A model generated the notes under the pieces. That model was not told where the DNA came from and made no database searches. It was given only the letters and a program-made list of their open reading frames with translations. 49,840 nucleotides of DNA from Blastocatellia bacterium (lineage in GTDB: Bacteria > Acidobacteriota > Blastocatellia > HR10 > J050), in contig JALSQX010000041.1 of the NCBI GenBank assembly GCA_026985075.1, forward strand, positions 1 to 49,840, written 5' to 3'. The number at the start of each line of letters is the position of its first letter. Within the stretch, counting starts at the first letter, position 1. Shown here piece by piece: positions 20,248 through 37,836 of the stretch. The translations under genes were made by a program, and so were the position numbers.

Positions 20248-23165
20248 TCCTCACCTCCTCGGGCTAGGAAGCGCGCTAGCAGGAGCCACTCGGCCATTTG
20301 TTCAAAACCGCGTTTACCGACTTCACTGACGTGTGTGTTTAATTTCTCCGCGAAGATAGTGAGCCTAGCAGAGAGTTCCTCGGCTTGCATGTCACGCTCA
20401 CCGCGTGAGAGGCCTTCAGCATGCCTCTTGAGCAAGCGCTTAAGCTCCGCTTGTTGCGCTTCTCTTGGCAAGTATGACAACGTGCGAGCTTCTTCAAAGA
20501 CCGCGTGTGCCGCTTTCATAGACAGCCGTCCATTCTTGAAGCGATTGCAGACATCGCTAACTAATGCCACAGTATCCCAATCAGCTTCCCCATAAAACCA
20601 CCGTGCCCCAACACGAGCCTCCTCACCCGACCGCTTAAGTAAATAGACACAAAGGGCATTGCGGTCGTAAAGCTCCTTGGCGTCGCGTTCGGCATAGCGG
20701 ACAGCCTGTAATGCAGCATCCAGCGGTTGTGTATGGTGAGCCATGGCAATGCCGAGAGATGCCGTTGCTGTCGGACCCATCGTGAGCAGGATTTCCCTTG
20801 AAGGCGTTTCGCGGTTGACCAAGTAGCCGCTCAACTGCTGATCCCCGAAGTCCACAGGTAAACCTTCACTGGGGGCAAACTCAGTGAGCGCCTTTTGATG
20901 TTTGACCTGTCCAGAAAACAACGCCCGCAACTCCCGCGCCGCCGGTAACGCCTGGTCAAGTGGAAGCAAAGCCAGCACATCATCGCCACCGGCGTAAACC
21001 ACACGCCCTGCGTACCGCTGCTCCACTACCCAGCGCACGATGTTCAATGCAAAGCTCGCCAGCGCGTTAGAAACTGCTGCGTGCACGGCCGGGGAAATAA
21101 GACGCCGAGCTTTCAAGAGATCTGCCCATCCTGGAAGCTTCTCCAATTCCATTTTCACCTTTGGATGAAGCACCCTCCCAAAACATGCTAATCCGTCATG
21201 TGTACCGCTGAGCCATCGTCCAGCGTGGTCACCGTCCATGTGAAGGATAGCATAGTATTTCGATGGGCGAGGGATGCCAGCTTCGTCAGCAGCTTTGAGC
21301 AATTTCCCAAGCGAGTCGCGCGCGGAGAGCGCGTCGCTTTCACTCATCGTCAATCCATAATCGGCCTTCAAACGTTTAGGTGTGAAGGTCTCCACGAAGA
21401 AGGCTTCACCATCATAATCCAGAAACTTGTCGGCGTATACCTTTGCCTGCGGGGATACGTTCGATAGTCGTTGCCAAGTCCGATGATGTTTTGGAATCGC
21501 ACGTTTGGCGACTGTTCGCGGGAAGCCGAGATGTTGCAACATCTCAATGTGATCTTTGAGCGCGTTGGTCAATCGCTCGCCATGTTGATCATCGCTCAGT
21601 TTGTTCAGCACCGCTACCTTAAAGGAAGCCACAGCGATTTCGCTGGTGGAAGGGAAACCACCCGTGATGCTCAACTTGTCTTTCAACACTTCACGCTGGA
21701 CAAACCGCTTGACGGAACACACGGCACACAGTCGTTCACGTCCGTCGGGTTTGATCTCAGCATGACGCCCTCGTTCTTTCAGATTCGCTGCCACTTGTGA
21801 CCACAGAGCGCGGACACCAGCGCGGCTACCATCCTGTTTGCGCAGCGCAGCGCGCTGTCCGCAAACGGTGCATTTCTCGCCGCGCTCTTCGGTCGGCTCA
21901 AAGCCACGCAGGCTCTTCCGTGCATTAAGGGCGCGGTCAGCAAGGGCGTATAGCAGACTGTAAGTCGTGCCCCAATTCGGGTGATACTGTCCGCCACCTT
22001 CTGCTTTGGGCTTGGCGAAGAGAGCGTAAATCTTGCTGAATGGCCAGTCTGTGGGAGGCTGACCTGTAAAACTCAGATGTTCATATAACGACTTCACAGC
22101 TTCTGCCTGTTTTTTGCCTTCACTCTCGCCTTCGCCTGCCCATGCCCATGGCAATACGACCCAGTAAATTTCCAATTGGTGTGCGACCTGCTCCTGCCAC
22201 ATCTGGCGCGTTATCTCATCGACAGGCATGATGCCATTGGACAACGCCGCAAGTACCGTGTTGGTCAATTGTTTCCATTCATCACATACGGCTTGTTCTG
22301 CTTTTTCCGCCGCCGACTTCGCCTCCGATGCAGGCAGCAGAGCAACGAACTTATTAGGCAGTGTGGCGAGCGCGAGGGCATCACCACCAGGTTTCGTAAT
22401 GGGAACGCCCTGCTCATACAACCACCAATCGCACAGCGGTTGACCGCGCAAGGATGGGAAGATGACGACATCTGGTCCAAATTCTTCTGCAAGAGTCTTC
22501 ATTGCCGCCCAAGTCAGATACGACAGCAGATAACTTCCCATCCATAAATCCTGCGTGCGCCGTGCAGCAGCAATGAACTCTTGCACGGGACCGATGGAAA
22601 AGACCATTAGTGCAGGGTGAGGCAAAGCATCTGCAATCGCTGCCGTGATGGACAAATGCTGATGGAGCGGATGATCGGGCTGACGTGTCTCAGCGGGAAG
22701 CATCCCAAACAGCGCACCCACGCGAGGGAATTCCTGGCCTAATTTATCGGGCAATAGTCGCCACAGTCGGAGAAACCGATCCCTGGTGTCCGCCGCATCC
22801 TTTGTAAGTTGCTCCATGGCTCTTCGCGCTGCATCGTGTGTGTCTGTCACGCTCACGTCAGCCATCATATCCAACTCAAGCGAGCGCCCCGCCAGCGGAT
22901 GAATCAGCACAGCTTGTTGCTTTTGCCAGTAGGCGGCGAGATATTCGCCCTGCGCGTCTTTTTCAGGAAAATCCACACGATCAGCAGCGGAAGCGACCTG
23001 GTCAGCACGTTTCGCTCGGTTCGCTTCATCCGCATTAGCTGCGCGACCTAGTGCTATCTGTATCAATTTGTTTGCACGCCCCTCATGCCCGCTGATAGCA
23101 AATGGTTTGTCAGGCGGATCATGGAGCAGAGCAACAATTTTGCGAGACCAACGGTCAGTTACCAT
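20244..23165 (-). CDS. cas10: Type III-B signature protein Cas10 (Cmr2)
   Basis: The 973-residue product starts with an HD-like region, KIVALLHDPPDKPFAISGHE, with His15-Asp16. A zinc-finger region with two CxxC pairs (CTVCGQRAALRKQ, then CAVCSVKRF) lies near residues 430-490. The polymerase palm carries the intact cyclase motif YAGGDDVLALLPLD, with Gly-Gly-Asp-Asp at 726-729, so synthesis of cyclic oligoadenylate is predicted. A helical C-terminal domain follows. Whether the HD part cuts DNA is uncertain, since only part of the HD signature is evident. Its start overlaps the cmr1 end by 7 nt. It is the source of the messenger for the CARF proteins encoded downstream. Confidence 0.98.
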   Translation of the reverse strand: MVTDRWSRKIVALLHDPPDKPFAISGHEGRANKLIQIALGRAANADEANRAKRADQVASAADRVDFPEKDAQGEYLAAYWQKQQAVLIHPLAGRSLELDMMADVSVTDTHDAARRAMEQLTKDAADTRDRFLRLWRLLPDKLGQEFPRVGALFGMLPAETRQPDHPLHQHLSITAAIADALPHPALMVFSIGPVQEFIAAARRTQDLWMGSYLLSYLTWAAMKTLAEEFGPDVVIFPSLRGQPLCDWWLYEQGVPITKPGGDALALATLPNKFVALLPASEAKSAAEKAEQAVCDEWKQLTNTVLAALSNGIMPVDEITRQMWQEQVAHQLEIYWVVLPWAWAGEGESEGKKQAEAVKSLYEHLSFTGQPPTDWPFSKIYALFAKPKAEGGGQYHPNWGTTYSLLYALADRALNARKSLRGFEPTEERGEKCTVCGQRAALRKQDGSRAGVRALWSQVAANLKERGRHAEIKPDGRERLCAVCSVKRFVQREVLKDKLSITGGFPSTSEIAVASFKVAVLNKLSDDQHGERLTNALKDHIEMLQHLGFPRTVAKRAIPKHHRTWQRLSNVSPQAKVYADKFLDYDGEAFFVETFTPKRLKADYGLTMSESDALSARDSLGKLLKAADEAGIPRPSKYYAILHMDGDHAGRWLSGTHDGLACFGRVLHPKVKMELEKLPGWADLLKARRLISPAVHAAVSNALASFALNIVRWVVEQRYAGRVVYAGGDDVLALLPLDQALPAARELRALFSGQVKHQKALTEFAPSEGLPVDFGDQQLSGYLVNRETPSREILLTMGPTATASLGIAMAHHTQPLDAALQAVRYAERDAKELYDRNALCVYLLKRSGEEARVGARWFYGEADWDTVALVSDVCNRFKNGRLSMKAAHAVFEEARTLSYLPREAQQAELKRLLKRHAEGLSRGERDMQAEELSARLTIFAEKLNTHVSEVGKRGFEQMAEWLLLARFLARGGEE

Positions 23166-24301
23166 CCTGTCACCTCCAATCGTCTTGCAACTTTACTGTC
23201 CAAATCGTTCAGGAAGTCGTGAATGATAGTCAGATCGGGCGGATTAACCGTGGCGTGTTGCAGTTGGAGTTGCTCGCCGTGAGACAGCAACTGGGCTTGG
23301 AAGAGGGTTAGCACAACGGTACACCGGCCATTGGTTAACTTTGCTACGCGCATCATGAGCGGTGAAGCACGGCGGTCGTGGCGTTCGCCCTCCAGCGTGC
23401 CCCGTTGTCCGCCCAACGAGCGGTAGTAAAACACGATAGGTAAGCCGAAAGCAGCGCGCTGTACAGGCTGGTTTAATCCTCGTCCCTGCACGGCCGCTTT
23501 TACATTGGCATAGTCTGATGGGTAGCGGCAGCGAAACTGCTGCATCACCTGACCAATTGTGTCTAACGCCTCTTCCCAGGAGTTGAATGATCTGTTTACC
23601 ACCCACACCTTGCATACGTTCGGATGTAGCACATCGAAAGCAGAAGGAGTATTGATGCTCCCAGGCGAAGTGGTAGACACCAATTGCCGCAAGCATCGCA
23701 GCCCGTCAGCGAGTTCCTTCTGCAATTCATCAGGCGTTGTCGCACGGACGATGAGAGATGGCAGATTAGTGGGCTCTCCTGGCGCTTGTGTTGCCTGCAA
23801 ACTCCCCGCGCCACGCCGTGAACGCGCGCCTAAGCCGCCAAGATGGGTTAGTAGCCATAAGGCCGCATACGCCCGCTGCAAGGCCATGTTGTCCAATTCG
23901 CTTACACCTGCTCGCACATTAAGCAATAGTTTGAATGAACTCTCTGCCACAATGGCGCATCGTTCGGCTTCACGCCTAGTTCCTCGTGCTGCGAAGTAAA
24001 GATAGCAGACACCCGCTCTATTTGCGGCAAGCTCAGAAAAGCTTTGTGTTCGGAGAGAACCATGCCAGACTCGCACCACCACAGGCGATGCGCCGGTGTC
24101 GGTGCTGCCAAAGACAGCGGATTCGGCTTGTCGCAAAGCATCCAAATCGTTATCTCCGATGATCCCACCTAACAGTGCCCGCAACCAGAAACGCAATGCG
24201 CCACGCACCGACGCTGCCCGTAGTTCAGGTCGTCCACGTGGGTCAGCACCTCCCAGAAACAACGGTGTGACCGTCTCCAACGTGAAGCTCACTTTTTTCA
24301 T
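23159..24301 (-). CDS. cmr1: Type III-B Cmr subunit Cmr1
   Basis: This is a RAMP protein of the Cas7 group. It begins MKKVSFTLETVTPLFLGGAD, and LRAASVRGALRFWLRALLGG is the Cmr1 RNA-binding segment; NQPVQRAAFGLPIVFYY is typical of its second half. Cmr1 binds the 3' end of the crRNA and sits at the end of the filament. I place the start at 24301 because GGAGG lies 6 nt before it; an upstream in-frame ATG at 24313 has no ribosome binding site. It is followed by cas10 with an overlap and preceded by 200 nt separating it from cas6. Confidence 0.94.
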   Translation of the reverse strand: MKKVSFTLETVTPLFLGGADPRGRPELRAASVRGALRFWLRALLGGIIGDNDLDALRQAESAVFGSTDTGASPVVVRVWHGSLRTQSFSELAANRAGVCYLYFAARGTRREAERCAIVAESSFKLLLNVRAGVSELDNMALQRAYAALWLLTHLGGLGARSRRGAGSLQATQAPGEPTNLPSLIVRATTPDELQKELADGLRCLRQLVSTTSPGSINTPSAFDVLHPNVCKVWVVNRSFNSWEEALDTIGQVMQQFRCRYPSDYANVKAAVQGRGLNQPVQRAAFGLPIVFYYRSLGGQRGTLEGERHDRRASPLMMRVAKLTNGRCTVVLTLFQAQLLSHGEQLQLQHATVNPPDLTIIHDFLNDLDSKVARRLEVTGW

Positions 24302-24506
24302 GCCGACCTCCATATCATGATGGGTTTTAGCACACCCACCGGTTCACTTCACTCACAACAACCTTGAAACAACCTTGTTTTTCTTCGCCGATCTCAGGTT
24401 CATCGGCACTCAGGCCACCGAGCAGTGCGCCCATCCTCTTCGCCGAGGCGAAGAGAACCTCCCGACGCTACTCCCTCCTCCCCCGCTCTCTCCGCACCCA
24501 AACGCA

Positions 24507-25493
24507 TCACCCGACGGGCGCATCCCCGGACGCCTCTTCCACCGGCTCCACCTCATACTTCCCCAATCCAAACGTCGTTCCCGCCCCCACATGGAGCAGC
24601 TCCCCAAGGATGAACAGCGGCAGAAGCTCACTCAGAACCTCAGCCGGTCCACCATACACGACCTCACCCACAAAGCCCCCCAATCGCATGGCCGTCCGCT
24701 GCCGATGCGAATACCGCTCCCAATCCAGCCAGCGCAACTCGCTCCTCACTACCCGAACGGCCCCGGCGCGCTCGATCAGCCGACGATGATCAATCTGCCA
24801 CGGCCCTCCCCCATGCACGAGCATCAACTGCCATATCCGCCGGAGCAGGCTGCGCGCCAACCGAGAGAAATCCGCTTCCCCTTGCAAATCGCCGCCCACC
24901 CGAATGCGCACCGGCGTCATAAATCTTAGTTTCACACCCGCCGAGCCCGCGCCGGAGAAATCGAAACCGGCCAGCCGACGCCGGACGAACGCCTCAATGT
25001 CCAAGGCGAACGGCCCGGCGGCCAACCGTTGCTCGCGACCATCGTAGATCAACCGCTCATCTCCTTGAGCATCAATTACATACGCCGATTGGAGCACGAA
25101 CCGCCCGCGCTCCCGCCCCAGGCCATGATGCCCGGCCCGGTCCAGGGCATAAATCACATACGGCAAGTAATCCACCGCCCGACCAATCAGCGTGAGCCCG
25201 AAGCAGAGTCGCTCGCCGGGCCGATAATACAGCTTCTCATCCGAGGGCGGCTCCAGGATGAACGGCCGCGGCGCGTACTTCTGCCCGCGAAACGCGGCCA
25301 CGCCCTCGGGGGGCAACGTCTCGAAAACGAGCGTGTAGGCGCATTGCGGACGGACCAGACAGGCCTCGCAATCCAGATCAGCGCGGATGCACACCAACCG
25401 CTTGAGCCGATGACCGAACGCTCCCCGAAGGGTCGATCCCTTGTAATGCGGCAAGTGGGCTTCCGTCTCGGCGCACAGCTCGAAACGGAACAC
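24507..25493 (-). CDS. cas6: CRISPR pre-crRNA processing endoribonuclease Cas6
   Basis: The product carries the N-terminal block LPHYKGSTLRGAFGHRLKRL, a cysteine cluster (CEACLVRPQCAYTLVFE), and the C-terminal Cas6 signature GGFVGEVVYGGPAEVLSELL followed by HVGAGTTFGLGKYEV (PF10040 type). It cleaves the repeat to leave the 8-nt ATTGCGAC handle. The only start in frame is GTG at 25493. However, the open frame continues upstream with LDQAKRLPLSV, which also looks like Cas6, while an ATG sits in another frame at about 25577. Either the true start is a rare codon or there is a frameshift near a TTTT run at about 25556-25559. It is the first gene of the locus. Confidence 0.93.
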   Translation of the reverse strand: MFRFELCAETEAHLPHYKGSTLRGAFGHRLKRLVCIRADLDCEACLVRPQCAYTLVFETLPPEGVAAFRGQKYAPRPFILEPPSDEKLYYRPGERLCFGLTLIGRAVDYLPYVIYALDRAGHHGLGRERGRFVLQSAYVIDAQGDERLIYDGREQRLAAGPFALDIEAFVRRRLAGFDFSGAGSAGVKLRFMTPVRIRVGGDLQGEADFSRLARSLLRRIWQLMLVHGGGPWQIDHRRLIERAGAVRVVRSELRWLDWERYSHRQRTAMRLGGFVGEVVYGGPAEVLSELLPLFILGELLHVGAGTTFGLGKYEVEPVEEASGDAPVG

Positions 25494-26397: not shown

Positions 26398-28668
26398 CTA
26401 TTCGGCGATCACGTTGAGCGAGAGCCACTCGTCCAATGGCCGGCGCCAGATCATTTCCAGCTCGGTGACCGGCTCATCGATGATCGTCTGTCGGTTGAGG
26501 TTCACGCGATAGCGCTCGCCACCGACGCGCCCCAACTCGGTGATCGGCACGCCATGAGCGCGAGCGAGCTCTCGCAGCCGATCGGCCTTGACCGGCTCCA
26601 GTGAAACGATGATTCGAGACGGGGACTCGCTGAACAGGAAGATGACGGGCCACAACGCTTCCGGAACCTCCGGCGGGGCGAACTCCACGTCTATCTCCAC
26701 GCCGTGACGCCGATTCCGATGACCGGAGAAACAACACTCGGCCAAGGCGATGGCCAATCCTCCATCGGAACAATCGTGCGCCGATTTGATGAGACCTTCC
26801 CGAATGGCCGTCAGGCAAACCTCCTGGACGGCGCGTTCTCTGGCCAAATCGAGGCGAGGGACCGGCCCGACCACGGCGCGGTGCATACGCTCCAGATACT
26901 CCGATCCACCCAGATCATCGCTCGTCTCGCCCAGCAGCAGGATGAGATCTCCCTCGTCCTTGAATCGATGAGTCATCAGATGGCGCGATTCTTCGATCAC
27001 GCCGATCATGCCGATGACCGGCGTGGGATAGACGCCTCGGCCTTCCGTCTCGTTATAGAAACTCACATTGCCTCCGGTGACCGGCGTCCCGAAGGCGCGA
27101 CAGGCTTCGGCCATCCCGTCGATCACCTCGCTGAAGCTCCACATCACGTCGGGGCGCTCCGGCGAAGCGAAATTCAAGCAATTGGTGATGGCCAGTGGAC
27201 GAGCGCCCACACAGACGACATTGCGCGCCGCTTCGGCCACGGCCAGTCGAGCGCCAGCGCGCGGATCGAGGTGACAATACCGACCATTACCGTCTAGCGT
27301 CATGGCCACGGCGCGACGCGTCTCCTTGACGCGAATGACGGCAGCATCCTCGCCCGGGAGCGTCAACGAATTGGTCCGCACCATATGGTCGTACTGACGA
27401 TAAACCCACTCTCGGGAACAGAGATTGGGCGAAGCGAGCATCCGACGTAACACTTCACCATAATCCTCGTGCCCGCTCGCCTCTCGCCAGAACGGCAACC
27501 GATGATAATCGCCTTCGGGCAGTGCCGGCGTCATCGGTCGATGATAGATGGGCGCATCCTCGGTGAGCAGCCGATTGGGGAGATCGACGACGACCTTGCC
27601 ACCATGGCGAACGACCAGACGATTGGTCTCGGTCACCCGTCCGATGACCACGGCATCCAGACCCCATTTCTCGAAGATCTTGATGATCTCGCGTTCACGC
27701 CCGCGCTTGACCACCAGCAGCATGCGCTCTTGCGATTCCGAGAGCATGATCTCATAGGCGTTCATGCCCTGCTCGCGCTGCGGCACGCGATCCAGATCGA
27801 TCTCAATACCCGTCCCCGCCCGAGCGCCCATCTCGCAGGTGGAACAGGTCAACCCGGCGGCGCCCATATCCTGCATGCCGACGACGGCCCCCGTGCGCAG
27901 TGCCTCCAGACAGGCCTCCAGGAGTAACTTCTCCATGAACGGATCGCCGACCTGAACCTGCGGACGCTTTTCCATGGCCTGCTCATCGAATTCGGCCGAC
28001 GCCATGGTCGCTCCGTGAATGCCATCGCGCCCCGTCTTGGCGCCCACGTAGAGAACGGGGTTGCCTACGCCGCCCGCCTGAGCGTAAAACACCCGTCCTT
28101 CTCGCACCAATCCCAGGGCGAAGGCATTGACCAATGGATTGCGGGCATAGCATTCGCCGAACATGATCTCCCCCCCGACGGTGGGCACGCCGAAGGAATT
28201 GCCGTAATCGCCGATGCCCTTGACCACGCCGGCCATGATGGCGCGATTCACCGGCTCGGTGAGCGGACCGAATCGGAGCGAATTCATCGCCGCCACCGGT
28301 CGCGCTCCCATGGTGAACACATCGCGAAGGATGCCGCCGACGCCGGTGGCCGCACCCTGATACGGTTCGATGAAGCTGGGATGGTTGTGCGATTCGATCT
28401 TGAAGACGACGTACCATCCATCGCCAATATCCACGACGCCGGCATTCTCGCCCGGACCCTGGACCACACATTCGCCCTCAGTCGGTAACCGCCGGAGATG
28501 CACTTTCGAGGATTTGTACGAGCAATGCTCGGACCACATGACGCCGATGATGCCCAGTTCGACGAGATTCGGTTCCCGGCCCAAGCGCTCTACGATGCGT
28601 CGATATTCATCCTCGGTGAGGCCTTGCGCTTCGATGAGTTGGGGAGTGATTACTGGTTGTTCAAGCAT
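26398..28668 (-). CDS. purL: Phosphoribosylformylglycinamidine synthase II, PurL
   Basis: This is the 756-residue ATP-dependent FGAM synthase subunit of purine synthesis, which works with PurQ and PurS (not in the window). Typical segments are [20 protein letters not shown] near the N-terminus, [20 protein letters not shown] with the catalytic His, [18 protein letters not shown], and [20 protein letters not shown] in the second half. Length fits the small bacterial PurL. It lies upstream of the CRISPR locus on the same strand, separated from cas6 by 0.9 kb, and marks the chromosomal border of the locus. Confidence 0.98.
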
Positions 28669-28815
28669 GCCGTTTGTCCAATGAAAAAGGGGCTATTATA
28701 GCCACTGATCCACAAGAGTGGCAAATGACCACCATAGGCGCCAGAAGTTTCATAGAACCGCGCTCCCATGAAGACCCCGAAGTTCCGGGGATCACTCCAT
28801 TCTTCGCTCAGCACT

Positions 28816-29340
28816 CAACTGAGCCTCCCCGCGGACGAGCCGCGGGGCTTCCCTAAAGGTGGGAATGGGACTTCACACTAGCTGACACCTGACCCCTCCC
28901 CGCTGATGAACAGCGGGGCTTCCTCAGAGGAGGGATGCGCCGCCTCTCTAGCTCACACCTGACTCCTCCCCGCCAGCACGCGGCAGTGGCTTCCCGGAGG
29001 GGGGATAGGCCGCCTGACCAGCGACCAATGTGAACCTCCCCGCTGATGAACAGCGGGGCTTCCCGGAAGTGGGGAATGGATCGCCTGACTAGCGGCCAAC
29101 GTGAACCCTCCCCACGGACGAGCCGCGAGGCGTCCCCAAGCCCCGGAACTCGTCTCCGGGGTCCGTGACATCGCCAGCTAGTTAACACGACATCCCCTCA
29201 TCCCCATGATGGCCCCGCGGTCTAGCTGCAGAGCCCCCTTGCTCCAGGCCCCGGAGCTCGCCTCCGGGGTGGGTGACTTGCCAGCTAGTTAACGCCTCGC
29301 TCGCCCCACTCCCAAAGGCCCCGGTGCTCGTCACCGGCGA
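28816..29340. repeat. 70-bp hairpin repeat cluster 1
   Basis: Five tandem units start at about 28820, 28890, 28960, 29031 and 29102, spaced 70-71 nt. Each has a CTCCCCGC...GCGGGGCTTCC hairpin, then a less conserved part containing GGGAAT and CTAGC. The third unit is degenerate. They are followed by two copies of a second hairpin, CCCCGGAG...CTCCGGGG with a tail CCAGCTAGTTAAC. Stems vary in a compensated way (CCGCGG/CCGCGG versus CCGCTG/CAGCGG). No gene is evident in 28669-29440. Confidence 0.85.
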
Positions 29341-29440
29341 TCGTTCCTTCCCTCGCTCATCATCCCCATGATTCTCATGCCCAGCTCAGGGTTGACGCAG
29401 CGACCACACCCCCTTATGGTTATTCGTGAGCTGATCGACT

Positions 29441-29908
29441 ATGTCCACCATCACCATCCGCTGCATGAGTCTCAAGGACTTGACTGCCGTCCTGGAGATC
29501 GAGCGCGCCAATTTTCCGCAACCATGGACGCGCCGGCATTTCCTCACCGAGCTCGAGCGCCACGATGCCTCTTTGCCCCTGGTGGCCGTGATCGATTCGC
29601 AGATCGTCGGCTACAGCGTCTGCTGGTTCATCGCCGATGAGATGCAGATCGCCACTGTCTCCGTCCATCCGCAATATCATGGTCAACGCATCGGCGAAAC
29701 GCTCCTCAGGAAATCGCTCGAGGAGGCGCATGCTCGCGGCTGCCGACGAGCTTTTCTGGAAGTGAGGAGGTCTAACCGCGCGGCGATTCATCTTTACCAA
29801 CGACTCGGCTTCCATCCTATTGGCTCCCGCCCCCGGTTTTACGGCGATGAGGACGCTCTTCTCATGAGCAAACGATTGACACCACCAGAATCCAATCCAT
29901 CCACCTGA
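29441..29908 (+). CDS. rimI: RimI-like N-acetyltransferase (GNAT)
   Basis: The 155-residue GNAT protein has the acetyl-CoA site VHPQYHGQRIGETLLRKSLE (V-x-P-x-x-x-x-x-R/Q-x-x-G/A pattern) and the RimI-type ending FLEVRRSNRAAIHLYQRLGF followed by HPIGSRPRFYGDEDALLM. The family acetylates the N-terminus of ribosomal protein S18 and similar substrates. It is a single plus-strand gene between minus-strand genes, preceded by the hairpin repeat cluster. Substrate assignment is by family only. Confidence 0.88.
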   Translation: MSTITIRCMSLKDLTAVLEIERANFPQPWTRRHFLTELERHDASLPLVAVIDSQIVGYSVCWFIADEMQIATVSVHPQYHGQRIGETLLRKSLEEAHARGCRRAFLEVRRSNRAAIHLYQRLGFHPIGSRPRFYGDEDALLMSKRLTPPESNPST

Positions 29909-29979
29909 ACGGACGGTGGCCCGGGAGGCAGCAGCGAAAGAGGAGAACCCTGTCCGTCTTTCCAGATGTTCTGGAGCGA

Positions 29980-30612
29980 TTACTCTAGGGCACCTCGATC
30001 GATTCGGGCCAGGCGCGGCGCCATCAGCGTGACCATCCAGCCGAGCACGAGCGTCGCCACCACATAGGTCCATCGCGGGATGCCACGGAGCGGCAGCGGG
30101 AAGAGCCAAGGCGTGCACCCGCCGGCGGCATCGCGAATGACGTGCGAAGCCAGCGCGACCATGACGATCAATCCGGCGCGTCCCTCTCTGCCGATGATCC
30201 ACGTGATGAGCCCACACAATGCGGCGAAAGTGAGACTGTGCGTCCACGGTCGGCACCCGAGCGCGATGGCCTCATCGAAAGAGAACGATCCGGCGGCGAT
30301 GAAATGATCGATATCGATGAGCGAGCCAACCGCCCCGGCGACGATGAGCGTCCTCCATCCCGCCCGGGGCGAGAGCCGAACCATGGGCCAGACGATGAGC
30401 GCGGCAATGATTCCGTGAAACAGACTGTCCATCGGTCCCCACACCCAGATGGGCAGCGCGCTTCGGAGCCCTCCGGTGGCGTCGGCCACGCGCATGGTGA
30501 CCAGGAGAAGCGCCGTCTGAACGATGAGAGCAACGAATACTCTGGATGCGCCAATGGACGTCTCAACAGGAGAGCGTGCCACAGGGATAGCATCATGGAG
30601 ATGTCGATCCAT
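29980..30612 (-). CDS. YdjM-like membrane-bound metal-dependent hydrolase
   Basis: This is a polytopic membrane protein of 210 residues with hydrophobic helices such as VFVALIVQTALLLVTMRVAD and GLIVMVALASHVIRDAAGG. The YdjM/DUF457 residues are present: DIDHF, RPWTHSLTF and SHVIRD, a set of His/Asp expected to bind metal at the membrane face. I chose the start at 30612 because the upstream 30 codons (to 30702) are encoded by a dispersed hairpin repeat at 30641-30672. Its substrate is unknown. It is convergent with rimI; the two stops are about 70 nt apart. Confidence 0.7.
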   Translation of the reverse strand: MDRHLHDAIPVARSPVETSIGASRVFVALIVQTALLLVTMRVADATGGLRSALPIWVWGPMDSLFHGIIAALIVWPMVRLSPRAGWRTLIVAGAVGSLIDIDHFIAAGSFSFDEAIALGCRPWTHSLTFAALCGLITWIIGREGRAGLIVMVALASHVIRDAAGGCTPWLFPLPLRGIPRWTYVVATLVLGWMVTLMAPRLARIDRGALE

Positions 30613-30640
30613 AAGCGTCCGTTTCTCCTCTGGAAACAAG

Positions 30641-30785
30641 GTCGCGTAAGCTGCCGGTTTGCGCGATTTCATGTTCAGTCCTCGTGGCGTGCTTTTGCCC
30701 ATGAGCGATTGTGGTGCAAGATGCCATCTTACGCTACATCTTCTTCATCCCTTCGGTGTGGCCCGCAGGGTCATGGATGACTCCG
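30641..30785. repeat. GCGCAAG-type hairpin repeats
   Basis: Two elements of the family also seen near 12.1 and 26.2 kb are present: GTCGCGTAAGCTGCCGGTTT at about 30641-30660 with its closing TGCGC, and GTGGTGCAAGATGCCATCTT at 30709-30728, followed by a shared tail (TTCGGTGTGGCC, GGTCATGGATGACTCC). Stem positions differ between copies with partial compensation. Confidence 0.5.
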
Positions 30786-31355
30786 TCCCACGCGCTCTCT
30801 GGTCGGCGGTGGCGGGTTTCCCCATCTCTCTTGAAATTCCGGCGATTGTTTGCGCAGCTCGAGCCAATCATCGAACACCGGCGGATTGTAGAGCCAGAGC
30901 GTGAACCATTCGACGATCTCTCGTTTGACATCGCGCGTTTCGGCCGACCTGGCCCGACGAGCGGCGGCCTGCGCCCGGCGCTTCCCCACCAGAGCGATCG
31001 AGCGAGCGTACCTCATGCCTTTCTCGTCGCCCGCGGCCTTGAATTTGCGATAGAGCGCGCTCAACCGGCGAAGCGACGCTTCGGCCTGCTCGAGCGTGCC
31101 GAATTTCAGGATGTCCCGGAATTGTTGCTCGTAAGGCTCCTCCATGGGCGGCAGGCTGAAGGCATCAGCGATGTGGACCGGTTTCCCCGCCTCGGCGAGG
31201 ACGCGAGCGATGTATCCGGGAGAACTCGCCCCCGATGGCCCTAGACTTTCAACGAGCTTCTTCTGAATCCGTCGTACCTCGGCCCGGCCCAAGCTGGTCA
31301 TCGCCTCTCGTTCGAAGATCTCCAGGATCAATTGTTTCTTCGTCGGACCGGACAT
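30771..31355 (-). CDS. Hypothetical protein
   Basis: The product is 194 residues from MSGPTKKQLILEIFEREAMT; I do not recognise the family. It is charged and mostly helical, with a region PGYIARVLAEAGKPVHIADA that could be a winged-helix-like N-terminus, then an Arg/Lys/Ala-rich stretch KRRAQAAARRARSAETRDVK, and a Trp-rich end (EIVEWFTLWLYNPPVFDDWL). The start is set at 31355, with AGGTG just before it. An in-frame Met at 31379 is possible, but further extension runs into repeat DNA. Its stop at 30771 overlaps the tail of a dispersed repeat. Confidence 0.65.
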   Translation of the reverse strand: MSGPTKKQLILEIFEREAMTSLGRAEVRRIQKKLVESLGPSGASSPGYIARVLAEAGKPVHIADAFSLPPMEEPYEQQFRDILKFGTLEQAEASLRRLSALYRKFKAAGDEKGMRYARSIALVGKRRAQAAARRARSAETRDVKREIVEWFTLWLYNPPVFDDWLELRKQSPEFQERWGNPPPPTRERVGRSHP

Positions 31356-31380
31356 GACTTCACCTGTATTGTACTTCATT

Positions 31381-32375
31381 TTCTGATGATGAGCGACCAG
31401 ACGGGAAGCTGACCGAGCCGCGGGGACTTCCCCGGGGGGAAGGGCACTTTGAATGAGCCGACAATTGACTCCTCCCCGCGGACGAGCCGCGGGGCTTCCC
31501 CGAGAGGAAATAGACCGCCTGACGAGCAACCAAGGTGAACCTCCCCGCAGCCAAGCGGCGGGGCGTCCCCCAGGCCACGAGGCTCGCCTCCGGGATCTGT
31601 GACATGACCAGCTCGTCAACCTGAGCGGTACACTGGGAATCGCTGGCGGCCAAACCACCTCCGGGATCTGTGACATGACCAGCTCGTCAACCGGTCGCCC
31701 ACCCCCACCCCGAAGGCCCCGCAGCTCGCCTCTAAGGATTGTTACTTCCCTCACTACCTGCGCTCTCAACTGAACCCTTCCCGCTATGAACAGCGGGGCT
31801 TCCCCGAGCCTTGGCACTCGCCTCTGGAGCCTGCTGCTCCCACCCGCTATTCACTCATCCTCTGCCATGAAGGCCCGAAGCTCGCCTCCGAGGTCCATGA
31901 CGTCCCCGCCAAGAGCACAAAACGTGACCCCTCCCCGCAGCCGAGCTGCGGGGCTTCCCCCAGGCCCCGCAGCTCGCCTCCGGAGTCCGTGACATCGCCG
32001 GCTAGTTAACGCCGCGCTCGCCCCATCCCCACAGGCCCCGCAGCTTGCCTCCGGAGATCATGTCGCTGCCCGCTGGTCGCCGCTCGATTTGGCGGAGTAC
32101 CTTACCCTGGCTGCCTCCGGAGATCATTTCGTTGCCCGCCAGTCAACGCGACCTCCCTTCTCTCCATGAATGCCCCGGAGCTCGTCTCCGGGGTTCATGA
32201 CTTGTCAGCTAGTCAACGCAACATCCCCTCTCCTCATGAATGCCCCGGAGCTCGCCTCCAGGGATCGTTACTTCCCCAGCTACTCAACGGCCCCCTCCCC
32301 ACGGTCCAGCCGCAGAACTTCCCCAGGCCCCGCAGCTCGCCTCCGGAGCTCATTTCGTTGCCCGCCAGTCCCAGG
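31381..32375. repeat. Hairpin repeat cluster 2
   Basis: About 1 kb without a gene is made almost entirely of the two hairpin types: CTCCCCGC...GCGGGGCTTCC (for example near 31471-31500 and 31931-31960) and CCCCGCAGCTCGCCTCCGGA-like elements with a tail CCAGCTAGTTAAC or CCAGCTCGTCAAC. The unit at 31933-31952 has the stem CCCCGCAG/CTGCGGGG. Spacing is irregular, about 60-110 nt. The nhaC 3' end abuts it. Confidence 0.8.
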
Positions 32376-32379
32376 ACAT

Positions 32380-33792
32380 TCATCCACCCAGGAGACCGGC
32401 CATGAGGTAGAGCCCGGCGGTCAATCCCGCCGCCACCAGCGCATAGGGGAGCTGGGTGATGAAATGATCGACGAGATCGGCCACGGCCGCCATCGCCGAG
32501 ACGATAGTCGTGTCCGAGAGAATCGAGGCATGATCGCCGAATACGCCTCCGGAGAGCACGGCACCGACGGCCAGCGGCAGGTTCACATTCAACGCCATGG
32601 CCGCCGGGACGGCGACCGGAATCATGATGGCGAAAGCGCCCCAGGAACTGCCCGTGGAGAAAGAGACGAGACAGGTGATGAGAAACACGACGGCCGGCAA
32701 TACCCAGCCGGGCAGCAACTCAGAGAACACCTGAGCGACATAGGTGCCGGTTCCCACATCCTGACAGACCCCACCGATGGCGTAAGCCAGGACGAGCATC
32801 ACATTCAACGGGACTAATCCCGCGATCCCTTTGAGAATCAATTCGGAGATCTCGCCGAGAGAGAGGAGCCGTTGCCCGAGCGACAAGAGGACACTGATCA
32901 GCACGGCCGCCGTCACGCCCCAGAGCACGGCCGTCGCTCCCGATCCGCTCAACATCCGGCCCGATCCCGTCACATAGAGGCCCACGGGAATCATGCCCAC
33001 CATAGCGATCATCGGCAAGACCATATTGCGCGCCCGCCGCGGGATGCCCGGTTTAGACGAGATCTCGGCCACGTCTTCGGCCATGAGGGGCATCGCGCCA
33101 TCGCGGAGCAGCTTCCCTTGCTCCTCGGCGCGTCGTTCGGCCGCGCGCATGAGACCCCAATCCCGCCCCATCAGGATGGCTGCCATCACGACGCCGATGG
33201 AGAGAAACAGATAGAAGCTCAACGGAACGGCCAGCGCCAATACGCGCACCGGTTCAGAGACGGCCTGAGCCGACAACAGGCTGATGATCAATGCGCCCCA
33301 TCCGTTCAATGGGATCATCATGCAACAGGCGGCATCAGAGGTATCGATGAGCAGAGAGAGTTTCTCTCGCGAGACGCGCAACCGATCACACACGGGACGC
33401 GCCACCGCACCCTTGACCAGCGCGTTGATGTTCGATTCGACAAACAGGGGAAAGCCGAGAAGTAAGGCGAACAATTGTGCCCCCCGGCGGGTGCGGATGA
33501 GGTTTCTTCTGAGGAGATAATTGACGAATCCTTCCAGACCGCCGGAGCGCTCCACCAGAGCCATCAGACTTCCCACCAGCGAGCAGAAAAAAATGACCCG
33601 CACATTGTCGGCCTCGGCGAACACCATCACCAGCCGCTCCAACGTATCACCCACCGCCTCGAACGGATGGCCGGAGGCCATGATGAGCGAACCGCTCAGA
33701 ATGCCCAGAAACAGAGCGACGTAGACCTGTCGCGTGCCGATAGCCAGAACGATGGCCAGAATCGGTGGAACGATGGAGAGCCAGGAATTCAT
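32380..33792 (-). CDS. nhaC: NhaC-family Na+/H+ antiporter
   Basis: This integral membrane protein of 470 residues has about 11-12 hydrophobic segments, beginning MNSWLSIVPPILAIVLAIGT. FPLFVESNINALVKGAVARP and SLLIDTSDAACCMMIPLNGW are typical of the NhaC-like branch, and FSTGSSWGAFAIMIPVAVPA near residue 380 is the conserved half-helix region. It would exchange Na+ for protons across the inner membrane; the substrate of this subgroup could also be another cation or a small organic anion. It stands alone, 64 nt downstream of the peptidase gene on the same strand. Confidence 0.85.
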   Translation of the reverse strand: MNSWLSIVPPILAIVLAIGTRQVYVALFLGILSGSLIMASGHPFEAVGDTLERLVMVFAEADNVRVIFFCSLVGSLMALVERSGGLEGFVNYLLRRNLIRTRRGAQLFALLLGFPLFVESNINALVKGAVARPVCDRLRVSREKLSLLIDTSDAACCMMIPLNGWGALIISLLSAQAVSEPVRVLALAVPLSFYLFLSIGVVMAAILMGRDWGLMRAAERRAEEQGKLLRDGAMPLMAEDVAEISSKPGIPRRARNMVLPMIAMVGMIPVGLYVTGSGRMLSGSGATAVLWGVTAAVLISVLLSLGQRLLSLGEISELILKGIAGLVPLNVMLVLAYAIGGVCQDVGTGTYVAQVFSELLPGWVLPAVVFLITCLVSFSTGSSWGAFAIMIPVAVPAAMALNVNLPLAVGAVLSGGVFGDHASILSDTTIVSAMAAVADLVDHFITQLPYALVAAGLTAGLYLMAGLLGG

Positions 33793-33856
33793 CGCCGGAT
33801 CGATCGCCCCTCCCCGAGCATCATACCCCGGTGCTCAACCGCAACGATGAAGATGC

Positions 33857-35902
33857 TCATGGGACGGCCTCCACGATGCCGATGGAGGCCAGCGCCCGCA
33901 AGTACTCGACGACGAGGTCCAGCGGAATCGGTCCGTAGATGGCCGAGACGGCATCGCGAATCTCCTGAACCGTTCGGCGACCATCGACGAGATTGAGCAC
34001 TTCGTAGGCGTAAGCGCCGCCCGCGGCGCGCTCTCCGCGAAACCGCAGCAAGCGAATCGTACGGGCGCGCTCGGCTCCATAATGATCGACGAAGTAATCG
34101 TAGCCGAAGACCGAGAGCGGACCTTTGACCGCGGACGAGCGTCGATAGACGAGACGTCCCTGGCCCGTGGGCGGTGGCGCTGGCGCAATCGGTCCCACTA
34201 ATGTTTCCAGAGCGGCGAAGAACGTCTCGGCCTCCCGGCTCAATGACGCGGGGATGGTGAAAAATCGGCTCAGAGAGTGGAACACGGCCCGCTCATACCA
34301 GAGATGGAATCGCGTCACGTTGTCGGCTTCCTGGCGCGGCAACTCAGCCCGACGCTGGAGCATCCGCGCCGTGCGTCGCAATGCCTGCGCTTTGAGGAGC
34401 GACCAGAGTTCAGGCGCTTCTTTCTGGCTCACGTTGGCCAGGAAATAGCCGCTGGCCGCTCCAATGAACGCCGCCCGTTTCAACTTGGTGGGATCGATGT
34501 TGGCCGGTGAGTCGAAATTGGTGTGGATGTACCGGTCGGGCCAATCGTTGAGATAGATGGCCGGAATGCCAAATGAGCTGTCGGTGTAGACCTGGTGGTC
34601 GCTGCCCATGGTGAATTCGGCGAATTCGGCTTGAAGCGCTTCCTTGCCGCCTTCGGGAGCGACCAACGGATACGGCGGACGCTCGCCGCTCGCGAAAGCC
34701 GCCGATTGCTCGTTGACGAAAGCGCCGAACGCTTCGGCCACGTCGTAAACGAACGACGGCAAGCTGGCCGGGCCGCGGGTGATGTGGAAGATGGCTTTGG
34801 TCGTCGGACCACCACCGACCATATCCATGTGAATGACCGCCTTGATGCGAGCGGCCAACTGGGGACGAGCATTGAGCAGCGCCAGCGTCCCTTCGATCTC
34901 CGGCGGCCAGATGAACCGGAGGCTGCGGGCCGGTCGGGAGATTTTTCCCTCGCGGATCAACTTCATCAGCGCCCGAGCAACTTCCAGGATAGTGGCCGAT
35001 CCGCTGGCGTTATCGTTCGCTCCGGGACGTTGGTGATCGAGGTGGCAACTGTAGGCGATCTCTTCGTCCTTCCGACGGGGATCGGCGCCGGGAATGCGGG
35101 CGGTGACCACGTGATAGAATCCCGGATGCCGCCCGGCGCGAACGACGGCGTGGAGTCGAATCGTCTCCCCTTGAGAGAGCCGCCGTTGAAAGGCGCGCGC
35201 CTGCTTGAGCGAGATCATGAAGGCGAATGTGGATGTCGACGAGAGGCTCTCCAGATGGCCCCAGCGCACCAGATTCTCATCTTCGCCCCACCAGGCCGTC
35301 CGTTGATTCTGGGCGTAGCTCACGATGCCCACCGCGCCATATCGCTCGACGGCCAGACGCGCCACCGGTCCCGGTTGGGCGGCGGCCAGCACGATCTTCC
35401 CGCGCACGTCCTTGCCCGCGTAATCGCTCTCCGAGGTGCCCTCGCCCACGTCTATGAGGTCGGCGGTGACGTCGGCGCTCTCGCTATCCTCGGCCAGCGT
35501 AATGGGCATGGCCTCCCAACTGGCCAGACGGCGATGAGGAACCCATCGGTCGGCCGTGCGTCGAAGTTCCCAGAGTTCGGCGAACTCGGCATCCCAGGCG
35601 GGACGAGCCTTCTGGGTGCCGTAGAACGTGCGACCGTCGGCGGGAAATTCTTCGATGCGCACGTCCTCGAATCCATAGGTTCGGAGTCGCTCGGCGATAT
35701 ATTCGGCGGCGGCTCGGAATGGGCGCGAGCCGCGAATGCGATGGAGCCGCGCCAGGTATTCCACGTGATGTTTGGCCGTTTCGCCGGAGAGTTCCTCGGC
35801 GAGCGCGGCAATCACCGGCTCGGGGAGCAGTGGCGGGCGCTGGGCCCTAACGCCTCCGGCTGAGATGAGACACAGGAGTATGGCGACGATGGCTCTTTTC
35901 AT
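33857..35902 (-). CDS. Secreted M28-family zinc peptidase
   Basis: The product is 681 residues from MKRAIVAILLCLISAGGVRA, a clear signal peptide ending near residue 20. A PA-like insert lies at about 140-260. The M28 di-zinc site is visible: AYSCHLDHQRPGANDNASGS (His and bridging Asp), WPPEIEGT (Glu pair region), HMDMVGG (Asp), and DRYIHTNFDSPANID (last His). It is probably an aminopeptidase acting outside the cytoplasm. The C-terminal 150 residues are an extra domain. An in-frame Met 25 codons upstream has no signal-like features, so I chose 35902. Confidence 0.88.
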   Translation of the reverse strand: MKRAIVAILLCLISAGGVRAQRPPLLPEPVIAALAEELSGETAKHHVEYLARLHRIRGSRPFRAAAEYIAERLRTYGFEDVRIEEFPADGRTFYGTQKARPAWDAEFAELWELRRTADRWVPHRRLASWEAMPITLAEDSESADVTADLIDVGEGTSESDYAGKDVRGKIVLAAAQPGPVARLAVERYGAVGIVSYAQNQRTAWWGEDENLVRWGHLESLSSTSTFAFMISLKQARAFQRRLSQGETIRLHAVVRAGRHPGFYHVVTARIPGADPRRKDEEIAYSCHLDHQRPGANDNASGSATILEVARALMKLIREGKISRPARSLRFIWPPEIEGTLALLNARPQLAARIKAVIHMDMVGGGPTTKAIFHITRGPASLPSFVYDVAEAFGAFVNEQSAAFASGERPPYPLVAPEGGKEALQAEFAEFTMGSDHQVYTDSSFGIPAIYLNDWPDRYIHTNFDSPANIDPTKLKRAAFIGAASGYFLANVSQKEAPELWSLLKAQALRRTARMLQRRAELPRQEADNVTRFHLWYERAVFHSLSRFFTIPASLSREAETFFAALETLVGPIAPAPPPTGQGRLVYRRSSAVKGPLSVFGYDYFVDHYGAERARTIRLLRFRGERAAGGAYAYEVLNLVDGRRTVQEIRDAVSAIYGPIPLDLVVEYLRALASIGIVEAVP

Positions 35903-36129
35903 CCTCCCCCTCCTCTCGGATAAACTTCCGAAGGGCGTTCGCCCTCGTATGGTGGGTAGCATGCGAAGACCTCGCACGTCGTTGCTGTTCTCAAACGCGA
36001 TGCGGTCGTCCTCGCATGATGGATGGTATTCATGACGATGACCGCGCGGATTCTATCCTCTATGAGAAACGGGCGTCAAGGCGGGCGACTGAAGCGCAAC
36101 GTCTTGTTGGTAGAGCGTTCGTGCTGAGC

Positions 36130-36560
36130 GAGGATGCTTAGCGACAAACGTGACGCCTCCCCGCAGTCTAGCTGCGGGGCTTCCTCCAGGGGAGTGAAAG
36201 ACCGTCGTGAACTAGCGGACAAGGCGAACCTCCCCGCCGACCAGCGACGGGGCTTCCCGGAACCCTCCCTGCATCCAGGCGGATGCTTCCACTCCAAGCC
36301 CCGGAGCTCGCCTCCGGGGTTCATGACCCCTCACTGGCCGCTGGTGTCCTAGCCGTCACTAGTATCCTCCAAGCCCCGGAGCTGGGCTCCGGGGTTGGTG
36401 ACTTGCCCGCTAGTCAACGCGACATCCCTTCTCCCCATGAATGCCCCGGAGCTCGACTCCGGGGATCGTTACTTCCCCAGCTACTCAACGGCTCAACTGA
36501 CCCCTCCCCATGGACAAGCCGCGGGACTTCCCTACGAACCCTCTACATCCCCCAGCATCC
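36130..36560. repeat. Hairpin repeat cluster 3
   Basis: This is the third cluster of the same family. The unit at 36159-36179 has the stem CCCCGCAG/CTGCGGGG; another near 36230-36251 is CCCCGCCG with a partly matching arm; three copies of CCCCGGAG...CTCCGGGG follow at about 36300, 36374 and 36443, two with the tail CTAGTCAACGC or CTACTCAACGG. The 36561-36681 stretch is the untranslated lead of the next gene. Confidence 0.8.
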
Positions 36561-36681
36561 CGGTGGCGCACTGGAAGGTTCATTTCTTCTGGTCATCGCC
36601 CTCGCCTCTGCGGTAAAATCATCCATTGACAACAGGAGAGTTTCATCGAGCACCGGGCGATCTCTCCATGGAGGACGAAAA

Positions 36682-37836
36682 ATGGCCGTGAAGGAACTCA
36701 AGGTGGAACCCGAACCAACTCCCATCACCCGAAGAGAGAGACGAAACCGCGCCAGTCAGTTGGCCGAGCTTCTCGAACGCCATCGCGGCGAGCGCCATGC
36801 TATCGTCTTGCAGGATTATCCCGATCCCGATGCCATTTCCTCAGCATTCGCGCATCGTCTCATCTCCGCGCGATTCGAGATCGAAGCCGATCTCCTCTAC
36901 AAGGGTCGCATCTCTCACCAGGAGAATCGCGCCCTGGTGCAGCTCGTGGAGGTGCCCCTGGTGCGCATCTCCGACGAGGCGCAATTGAAAGGCTATCAGC
37001 ACAGCGTGTTCGTGGATAATCAGGGGACGACCTCATCATTGACGCCGATGCTGGACCGAGCAGGCATCAAGCCGCTGGTCATCGTCGATCACCACGAGGT
37101 CCAGGATGTCATTCACGCCGAATTCGAAGACATTCGAAAAATCGGAGCGACGGCGACCATCTACACCGAGTACTTGCGCGACGGATTGCTCAATCTGGAT
37201 CGCTCCAACACGGCCCACGTGCGACTGGCGACGGCGCTCATGCACGGACTGCGCAGCGAGACGAACGGGCTCATTCATGCACGTCAGGAGGATATGGAAG
37301 CGGCCACTTTCCTGACGCCTTTCATCGATGCCTCATTGCTCGATCAGATTCTCCACATCAAACGATCCAAACGCGTCATGGACATCATTCGCGACGCCCT
37401 GGCCAATCGCATGGTGGTGGAAAACTACAGCATCTCTGGCATCGGCTTTCTGCGCGCCGAAGATCGTGATGGCATTCCCCAAGCCGCGGACTTCCTCATG
37501 ACCGAAGAGAACGTTCACACGGCGATCGTCTACGGCATCGTATTCAAAGAGGATGGCGAAGCCCTGATCGGGTCCATGCGAACGACCAAGCTCACGCTCG
37601 ATGTGGACGAATTCCTCAAAGATGCCCTCGGGGGGAGAGAACGCGGGCACTACTACGGTGGGGGGCGTCGCGGCGCCGGTGGCTTCGAGATTCCCATTCG
37701 CTTTCTCGCTGGTCAATTCGATGAGGAGATGATGGCGCTCAAATGGAAGATCTACGATGAAGTCATCAAGCGAAAGCTGCTGGCCAAAATCGGCGTCTCC
37801 GCGCCTAAGACGGCCGGCGAAGGAAGCAAGCAGTGA
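36682..37836 (+). CDS. DHH-family phosphoesterase (NrnA-like)
   Basis: The product is 384 residues from MAVKELKVEPEPTPITRRER. The DHH motifs are present: HAIVLQDYPDPDAISSAFAH (D-x-D), VFVDNQGTTSS, and VIVDHHEVQDV (the D-H-H triad). The C-terminal DHHA1-like part ends near FEIPIRFLAG. Members cut short oligoribonucleotides or cyclic dinucleotides (NrnA, PAP phosphatase). Here the first motif is longer than in NrnA, so the substrate is uncertain. Start at 36682, with GGAGGA 6 nt before it; an upstream extension to 36283 is repeat DNA. A role in degrading linear products of cyclic oligoadenylate is possible but speculative. Confidence 0.85.
   Translation: MAVKELKVEPEPTPITRRERRNRASQLAELLERHRGERHAIVLQDYPDPDAISSAFAHRLISARFEIEADLLYKGRISHQENRALVQLVEVPLVRISDEAQLKGYQHSVFVDNQGTTSSLTPMLDRAGIKPLVIVDHHEVQDVIHAEFEDIRKIGATATIYTEYLRDGLLNLDRSNTAHVRLATALMHGLRSETNGLIHARQEDMEAATFLTPFIDASLLDQILHIKRSKRVMDIIRDALANRMVVENYSISGIGFLRAEDRDGIPQAADFLMTEENVHTAIVYGIVFKEDGEALIGSMRTTKLTLDVDEFLKDALGGRERGHYYGGGRRGAGGFEIPIRFLAGQFDEEMMALKWKIYDEVIKRKLLAKIGVSAPKTAGEGSKQ

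Follow-up and report, generated by a model that had tools for sequence, protein, structure and literature searches.

The 49,840-nucleotide stretch of Blastocatellia bacterium DNA analysed here (contig 41 of a 5.2 Mb genome in 105 contigs, 98.7% complete; hereafter the window) carries three clusters of a repeated hairpin unit of about 70 nt between 28.8 and 36.5 kb. All three lie between genes. Each unit contains an 8-bp stem closed by a 5-nt loop. A sequence-only reading of the window had described the three clusters, their intergenic position and stems that differ yet still pair, and on each of these points it is borne out; the stems CCCCGCGG/CCGCGGGG (28827), CCCCGCTG/CAGCGGGG (28898 and 29038) and CCCCGCAG/CTGCGGGG (31933 and 36159) were confirmed. 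Two families are present between 28500 and 37000, with 12 type A copies in plus orientation and 14 type B copies. On the plus strand the type B loop reads CTCGC or CTCGT, which corresponds to a hairpin of this kind on the minus strand; these opposite-strand units, about half of the total, were absent from the earlier description. The consensus of type A is CtAGCtnnCAacTGAcncCT[CCCCgCnG]aCnAG[CnGcGGGG]CTTCC, that of type B1 gtagcggggAaGTAACgAT[CCCCGGAG]gCnAG[CTCCGGGG] and that of type B2 AcTAGCnGgcAAGTCAngGA[CCCCGGAG]nCnAG[CTCCGGGG]. The clusters and their hairpins are as follows (minus-strand hairpins as read on that strand).

28806..29349, cluster 1, between a divergent purL-like gene (-) and a GNAT acetyltransferase gene (+)
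28827..28847, +, type-A hairpin CCCCGCGG/acgag/CCGCGGGG
28898..28918, +, type-A hairpin CCCCGCTG/atgaa/CAGCGGGG, CTAG upstream
29038..29058, +, type-A hairpin CCCCGCTG/atgaa/CAGCGGGG
29141..29161, -, type-B hairpin CCCCGGAG/acgag/TTCCGGGG
29249..29269, -, type-B hairpin CCCCGGAG/gcgag/CTCCGGGG, CTAG upstream on the minus strand
31395..32370, cluster 2, between an uncharacterised gene and a Na+/H+ antiporter gene, both -
31474..31494, +, type-A hairpin CCCCGCGG/acgag/CCGCGGGG
31543..31563, +, type-A hairpin CCCCGCAG/ccaag/CGGCGGGG, one mismatch
31933..31953, +, type-A hairpin CCCCGCAG/ccgag/CTGCGGGG
32173..32193, -, type-B2 hairpin CCCCGGAG/acgag/CTCCGGGG, CTAG upstream
32243..32263, -, type-B1 hairpin CCCTGGAG/gcgag/CTCCGGGG, TAG upstream
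36139..36537, cluster 3, between a divergent M28 peptidase gene (-) and the gene of a DHH-like protein (+), whose Pfam score is slightly under the cut-off
36159..36179, +, type-A hairpin CCCCGCAG/tctag/CTGCGGGG
36232..36252, +, type-A hairpin CCCCGCCG/accag/CGACGGGG, one mismatch
36299..36319, -, type-B hairpin CCCCGGAG/gcgag/CTCCGGGG
36374..36394, -, type-B2 hairpin CCCCGGAG/cccag/CTCCGGGG, CTAG upstream
36444..36464, -, type-B1 hairpin CCCCGGAG/tcgag/CTCCGGGG, TAG upstream
36506..36526, +, type-A hairpin, degenerate, CCCCATGG/acaag/CCGCGGGA

Abundance, layout and covariation of the units

The genome has 314 exact copies of the core CCCCNNNGNNNAGCNNNGGGGC, 154 and 160 on the two strands, and none of its reversed control. 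Within 30 fetched loci (262 kb), picked for containing repeats, a sequence-only profile gave 423 matches (E<=0.001). Spacing and layout were taken from a list of 392 copies in which some palindromes are counted on both strands. Neighbours of the same orientation less than 200 nt apart are spaced 67-75 nt in 133 of 164 cases. The arrays follow a recurring plan, type A units in one direction and then B1 and B2 in the opposite direction; A to A accounts for 89 and B1 to B2 for 44 of the 164 transitions. A TAG is located 17-21 nt ahead of the stem in 243 of the 392 copies and 26-30 nt ahead in one; 180 copies have the form CTAG. A second genome of the same genus (G001) has 85 repeat matches at E<=1e-5. 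Its site orthologous to cluster 3 holds a different unit set, and at cluster 2 synteny is broken at the array start, with other DNA there in G001. That DNA (L145, G001:C35:1-3174) is unrelated and by eye resembles a transposase gene. We also note another dispersed repeat, of the CTGTGAAGATCTGTGG...CCATTCC type, adjoining several arrays (L012:17930-18200 and 1180-1500).

The covariation that the sequence-only reading expected of the stems is significant. Among 141 distinct copies, aligned by a profile without base pairs though one trained on stem-bearing copies, 96.1% of cells pair, against 86.0% after shuffling and at most 55.4% in slid registers; the covariation score is 0.236 vs 0.074, and 0 of 500 shuffles were as high. 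Three stem pairs vary. Columns 32/42 (C-G vs G-C) mostly split types A and B and may reflect one old event, and it is in the other two varying pairs that recurrent base-pair swapping resides. Per-pair counts were made on copies chosen without requiring a match in the middle pairs (285 of the 314 cores are within the fetched loci). In type A the pair a5-b4 is Watson-Crick in 150 of 164 copies (shuffled mean 100, maximum 114) and a7-b2 in 124 of 164 (mean 49, maximum 71), with all four Watson-Crick pairs occurring at the latter; a6-b3 shows little excess (145 vs a shuffled mean of 139.9 and maximum of 145). When 69 disjoint pairs of nearest type-A copies were compared, the first column pair gave 8 two-sided and 6 one-sided changes (Fisher p 4e-7) and the second 26 and 16 (Fisher p 5e-6). 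Among seven control column pairs, loop position 3 gives p ~1e-3 with either a7 or b2, and loop position 1 gives p 0.009 with a7, so that there is some co-segregation of the whole apex. The z-scores of six single-unit DNA folds range from -0.98 to -5.72, and folding energy alone lends weak support.

A double-Y1 transposase and its relatives

The only two matches to PF01797 in the genome are both halves of one open reading frame of 286 aa (contig C95, 24052-24912), on another contig than the window; both halves match Y1_Tnp. This double-Y1 gene is immediately flanked by repeat units, with an A unit to its left and B units to its right, and its last codons, encoding the C-terminal tail, are provided by a B-type unit (L004:6876-6912). 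The genome thus has a transposase, as suggested from the window's letters, but not one of the RAYT type named there. The protein scores 120.6 bits with the IS200/IS605 model NF033573 (cut-off 55), and the proteins tested 120-149 bits, summed over two stretches. With the RAYT model NF047646 (cut-off 80) it scores 44.1 bits, the range being 44.1-64.6 in 5/5 proteins. Assignment to RAYT/TnpAREP was therefore rejected on the model cut-off (5/5 proteins) and also on the Y---NP motif, which is missing in 10/10. The AlphaFold2 model has a mean pLDDT (predicted local distance difference test) of 78.3 and a pTM (predicted template modelling score) of 0.77, with the linker 119-147 below a pLDDT of 50. 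The closest PDB structures are ISDra2 and IS608 TnpA (Foldseek E 2.4e-9; VIA Z 15.7, root-mean-square deviation 4.5 over 133 residues); the RAYT structure 4er8 ranks 35th with Foldseek and has Z 10.6.

Catalytic residues were counted in an alignment of 10 proteins, 36-43% identical to that of this genome; two are fragments without the half-1 HUH region, and the degenerate or truncated loci L052, L055, L056 and L059 were excluded. Half 1 keeps Tyr and Gln in 10/10, the motif being Y---Q--HH in 10/10, and its HUH motif is absent, the second His missing, in all eight proteins covering the region. Half 2 keeps HUH in 10/10, Gln in none and Tyr in one (F in seven, W in two), so that 9/10 proteins have a half 2 without the Tyr that would place it and HUH in the same domain. 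PMC5934647 describes the IS608 TnpA site as assembled in trans, from the Tyr of one subunit and the HUH of the other. The fused protein, with complementary halves, can build one such site, and we infer from the residue pattern that one active site is probably shared between its two halves.

Homologues at E<=1e-15 are present in 8/162 genomes of the class and, at E<=1e-25, in 3/396 of a phylum sample (own genome included in both); the phylum sample yielded no host besides G000, G017 and G021. A scan of named genomes gave only a weak Desulfobulbaceae relative, and no match in plasmid records covered 80% of the protein. In viral contigs there are 49 relatives with 18-30% identity, the majority of which match half 2 alone. 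In relatives, some double-Y1 copies (at L049, L050, L051, L054 and L058) are split or contain a TAG in frame within the stretch that matches, which suggests decay. No fused or double Y1 transposase was found in the literature searched; a 2018 Y1 survey (PMC6006769) states that unexpectedly long proteins were discarded, thus fusions may have been seen and dropped there.

Hairpins accompany the gene in these relatives. A geometry scan of 13 double-Y1 loci, with perfect 8-bp stems and TAG allowed 16-22 nt upstream, located a hairpin with TAG at 11 (none in L052 and L057). The TAG-stem distance is 18-20 nt at all 11, though the stems differ between genomes (CCACCAAC, CCCCCAAC, CCACCCAC, CCCCAACC and others). 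Tandem periods are mostly 66-73 nt, and the nearest flanking units face away from the gene in 6/6 loci with two-sided repeats. The relatives' hairpin pattern has matches in 17/162 class genomes (control 0), with counts of 237, 188, 70, 36, 27, 21, 21, 15 and 14 in nine of them and no more than 4 in any other. The gene (E<=1e-15) is present in 5/9 genomes with at least 10 matches vs 3/153 others, many of the genomes being close relatives. The gene-bearing G000, G132 and G145 have 0-3 matches of this pattern; G000's own stem differs.

Interpretation and alternatives

We read the clusters as REP-like (repetitive extragenic palindrome) elements that serve as single-stranded DNA substrates of the fused-dimer Y1 transposase encoded once in the genome, and put the probability of this at about 0.68. 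The observed repeat anatomy, covariation, gene context, conserved geometry and reciprocal loss of catalytic residues are its basis. In the proposed mechanism a unit consists of the TAG tag (often CTAG), some 15 nt and then the 8-bp hairpin, which the transposase would bind in its folded form on an exposed single strand. Half 1 would give the nucleophilic Tyr (Y115) and the metal-binding Gln (Q119), and half 2 the HUH histidines H200 and H202, making one active site in trans. The enzyme may cut near TAG, some 19 nt ahead of the stem on its 5' side, and copy or move units; were a unit joined 3' of the TAG of another, head-to-tail arrays with a period of about 70 nt would result. Stems would stay paired because unpaired units are no longer recognised.

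Several observations weigh against this reading. Half 2 of this genome's own protein keeps a Tyr (Y265) beside HUH, so a cis active site is possible there; the excluded second half of L056, with HUH kept and a Tyr motif at its end, is a second such case. Units that adjoin resemble each other (mean 0.65) to no greater degree than do others of their locus (0.648), and no growth mechanism is therefore singled out. Comparison with G001 gave no clean empty site, clusters 2 and 3 and three further sites showing turnover. G001, with its 85 repeats, has no double-Y1 gene at E<=1e-3, nor have G025, G141, G143 and G144, with 14-36 pattern matches, at E<=1e-15. The assemblies of G001 and G025 are drafts (480 and 520 contigs), with several of the repeats in G001 placed within 100 nt of a contig end, thus gene loss and an assembly gap are indistinguishable. 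Binding, the cut site near TAG, mobilisation and array growth are inferred.

The paired changes had been taken as a sign of selection on a folded RNA or DNA; selection on a folded form is upheld by the covariation, and of the two, DNA has more evidence on its side than a transcribed RNA. G·U is expected to be tolerated in a sense RNA. Type A mismatches are A·C in 32 cases vs G·T in 8, those of type B G·T in 9 and A·C in 5, and those of the outer stem T·G in 44 and C·A in 40, so that on the repeat strand G·T is not over-represented. As the copies are not independent this is an indication and no proof, and the type A mismatches, taken by themselves, would agree equally with an RNA read from the other strand. 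Selection on transcribed mRNA stabilisers, attenuators or small RNAs, with the transposase nearby incidental, would suit the covarying stems and the intergenic clusters, two of the three being in divergent promoter regions. We nevertheless regard it as improbable: the copies are balanced between strands (154 vs 160), wobble is not in excess on the strand read, Rfam at gathering thresholds gave 0 matches in 28500-36700, and hairpins of like geometry flank the transposase gene in other genera.

Somewhat less improbable, though still unlikely, is that host processes alone (template switching between arms, slippage, unequal recombination) keep and expand the arrays with no transposase action. A block of units is duplicated with identical scores about 309 nt apart (C70; L006:1742-2412), units of one locus are more alike than those of different loci (0.65 vs 0.568), and the arrays of two species differ at the same site, all as such processes would have it. 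They leave unexplained the TAG tag, its 18-20 nt distance across differing stems and the association with the gene; moreover a type-A copy has its nearest relative in an adjacent unit in only 14/222 cases and at another locus in 110/222. An ordinary RAYT/REP system, to which the hundreds of short extragenic palindromes, the inverted composite arrays and the single flanked Y1 gene would correspond, is very unlikely given the model scores (44-65 bits vs 80 for RAYT, 120-149 vs 55 for IS200/IS605), the motif Y---Q--HH in place of the Y---NP of RAYT (PMC6006769) and a tag 18-20 nt from the stem and not at its foot.

It is thus likely that the repeats work like REPs and that the enzyme is a fused-dimer IS200-type Y1 protein; we judge REP-like repeats with a fused-dimer Y1 transposase to be a new variant of REP/transposase systems. 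More tentatively, with the odds a little under even, they may form a new class, with complementary halves, only one trans site and a TAG-cutting builder of ~70-nt arrays. In that case a half-site enzyme of IS200 type, fused by nature, would have become an array builder. How REP-like repeats spread is described as an open question in PMC8266576. One composite site would part hairpin binding from the two-site chemistry of insertion sequences (IS) and so make single-cut models testable, and several genera with different cognate hairpins and one geometry offer ready enzyme/substrate pairs for studies of specificity. Elsewhere in the window, the minus strand at 23159-25490 carries CRISPR genes (RAMP protein, Cas6).

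Comparison with known systems

REP/REPtrons with TnpAREP (RAYT) share with the present system the many short palindromes in both orientations, the composite arrays and one flanked Y1 gene. The repeats are high-copy short palindromes, as REPs are (314 cores, 423 profile matches), and their clusters in the window are intergenic. The clusters had been set apart from single REP elements as tandem arrays; this is partly right, since REPs are also known in tandem composite arrays (PMC8266576). The difference is that REPs have GTAG at the 5' foot of the stem, whereas here TAG is 17-21 nt upstream (18-20 nt at the double-Y1 loci), and that the protein is two-domain and IS200-like, with Y---Q--HH and a score below the RAYT cut-off.

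Two further groups are defined in PMC6006769. TnpAY1 subclass 1.2 has in common with our protein Y---Q--HH (here in half 1, 10/10), a DHxH HUH motif and low copy number; its members are described there as single-domain (median 148 aa), without REP and mostly from Cyanobacteria and Bacteroidetes, unlike the two-domain protein with repeats found here. TnpAY1 class 3 is alike in counting Acidobacteria among its hosts and in its atypical high-copy hairpins (~600 in one genome), and differs in its Y----Q and NHVH motifs, median length of 178 aa and hairpin foot CnGA.

An IS200/IS605 element has a left and a right end and several IS copies; here there is a single gene with hundreds of solo hairpins in arrays. 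Membership of IS200/IS605 TnpA holds for sequence and fold, not for domain organisation. With IS608 and ISDra2 TnpA (subclass 1.1) the enzyme shares the fold, the HUH and Tyr/Gln motifs and probably hairpin substrates, and with IS608 probably an active site in trans between two subunits, which in the double-Y1 protein are fused in one chain and would form a single composite site in most members.

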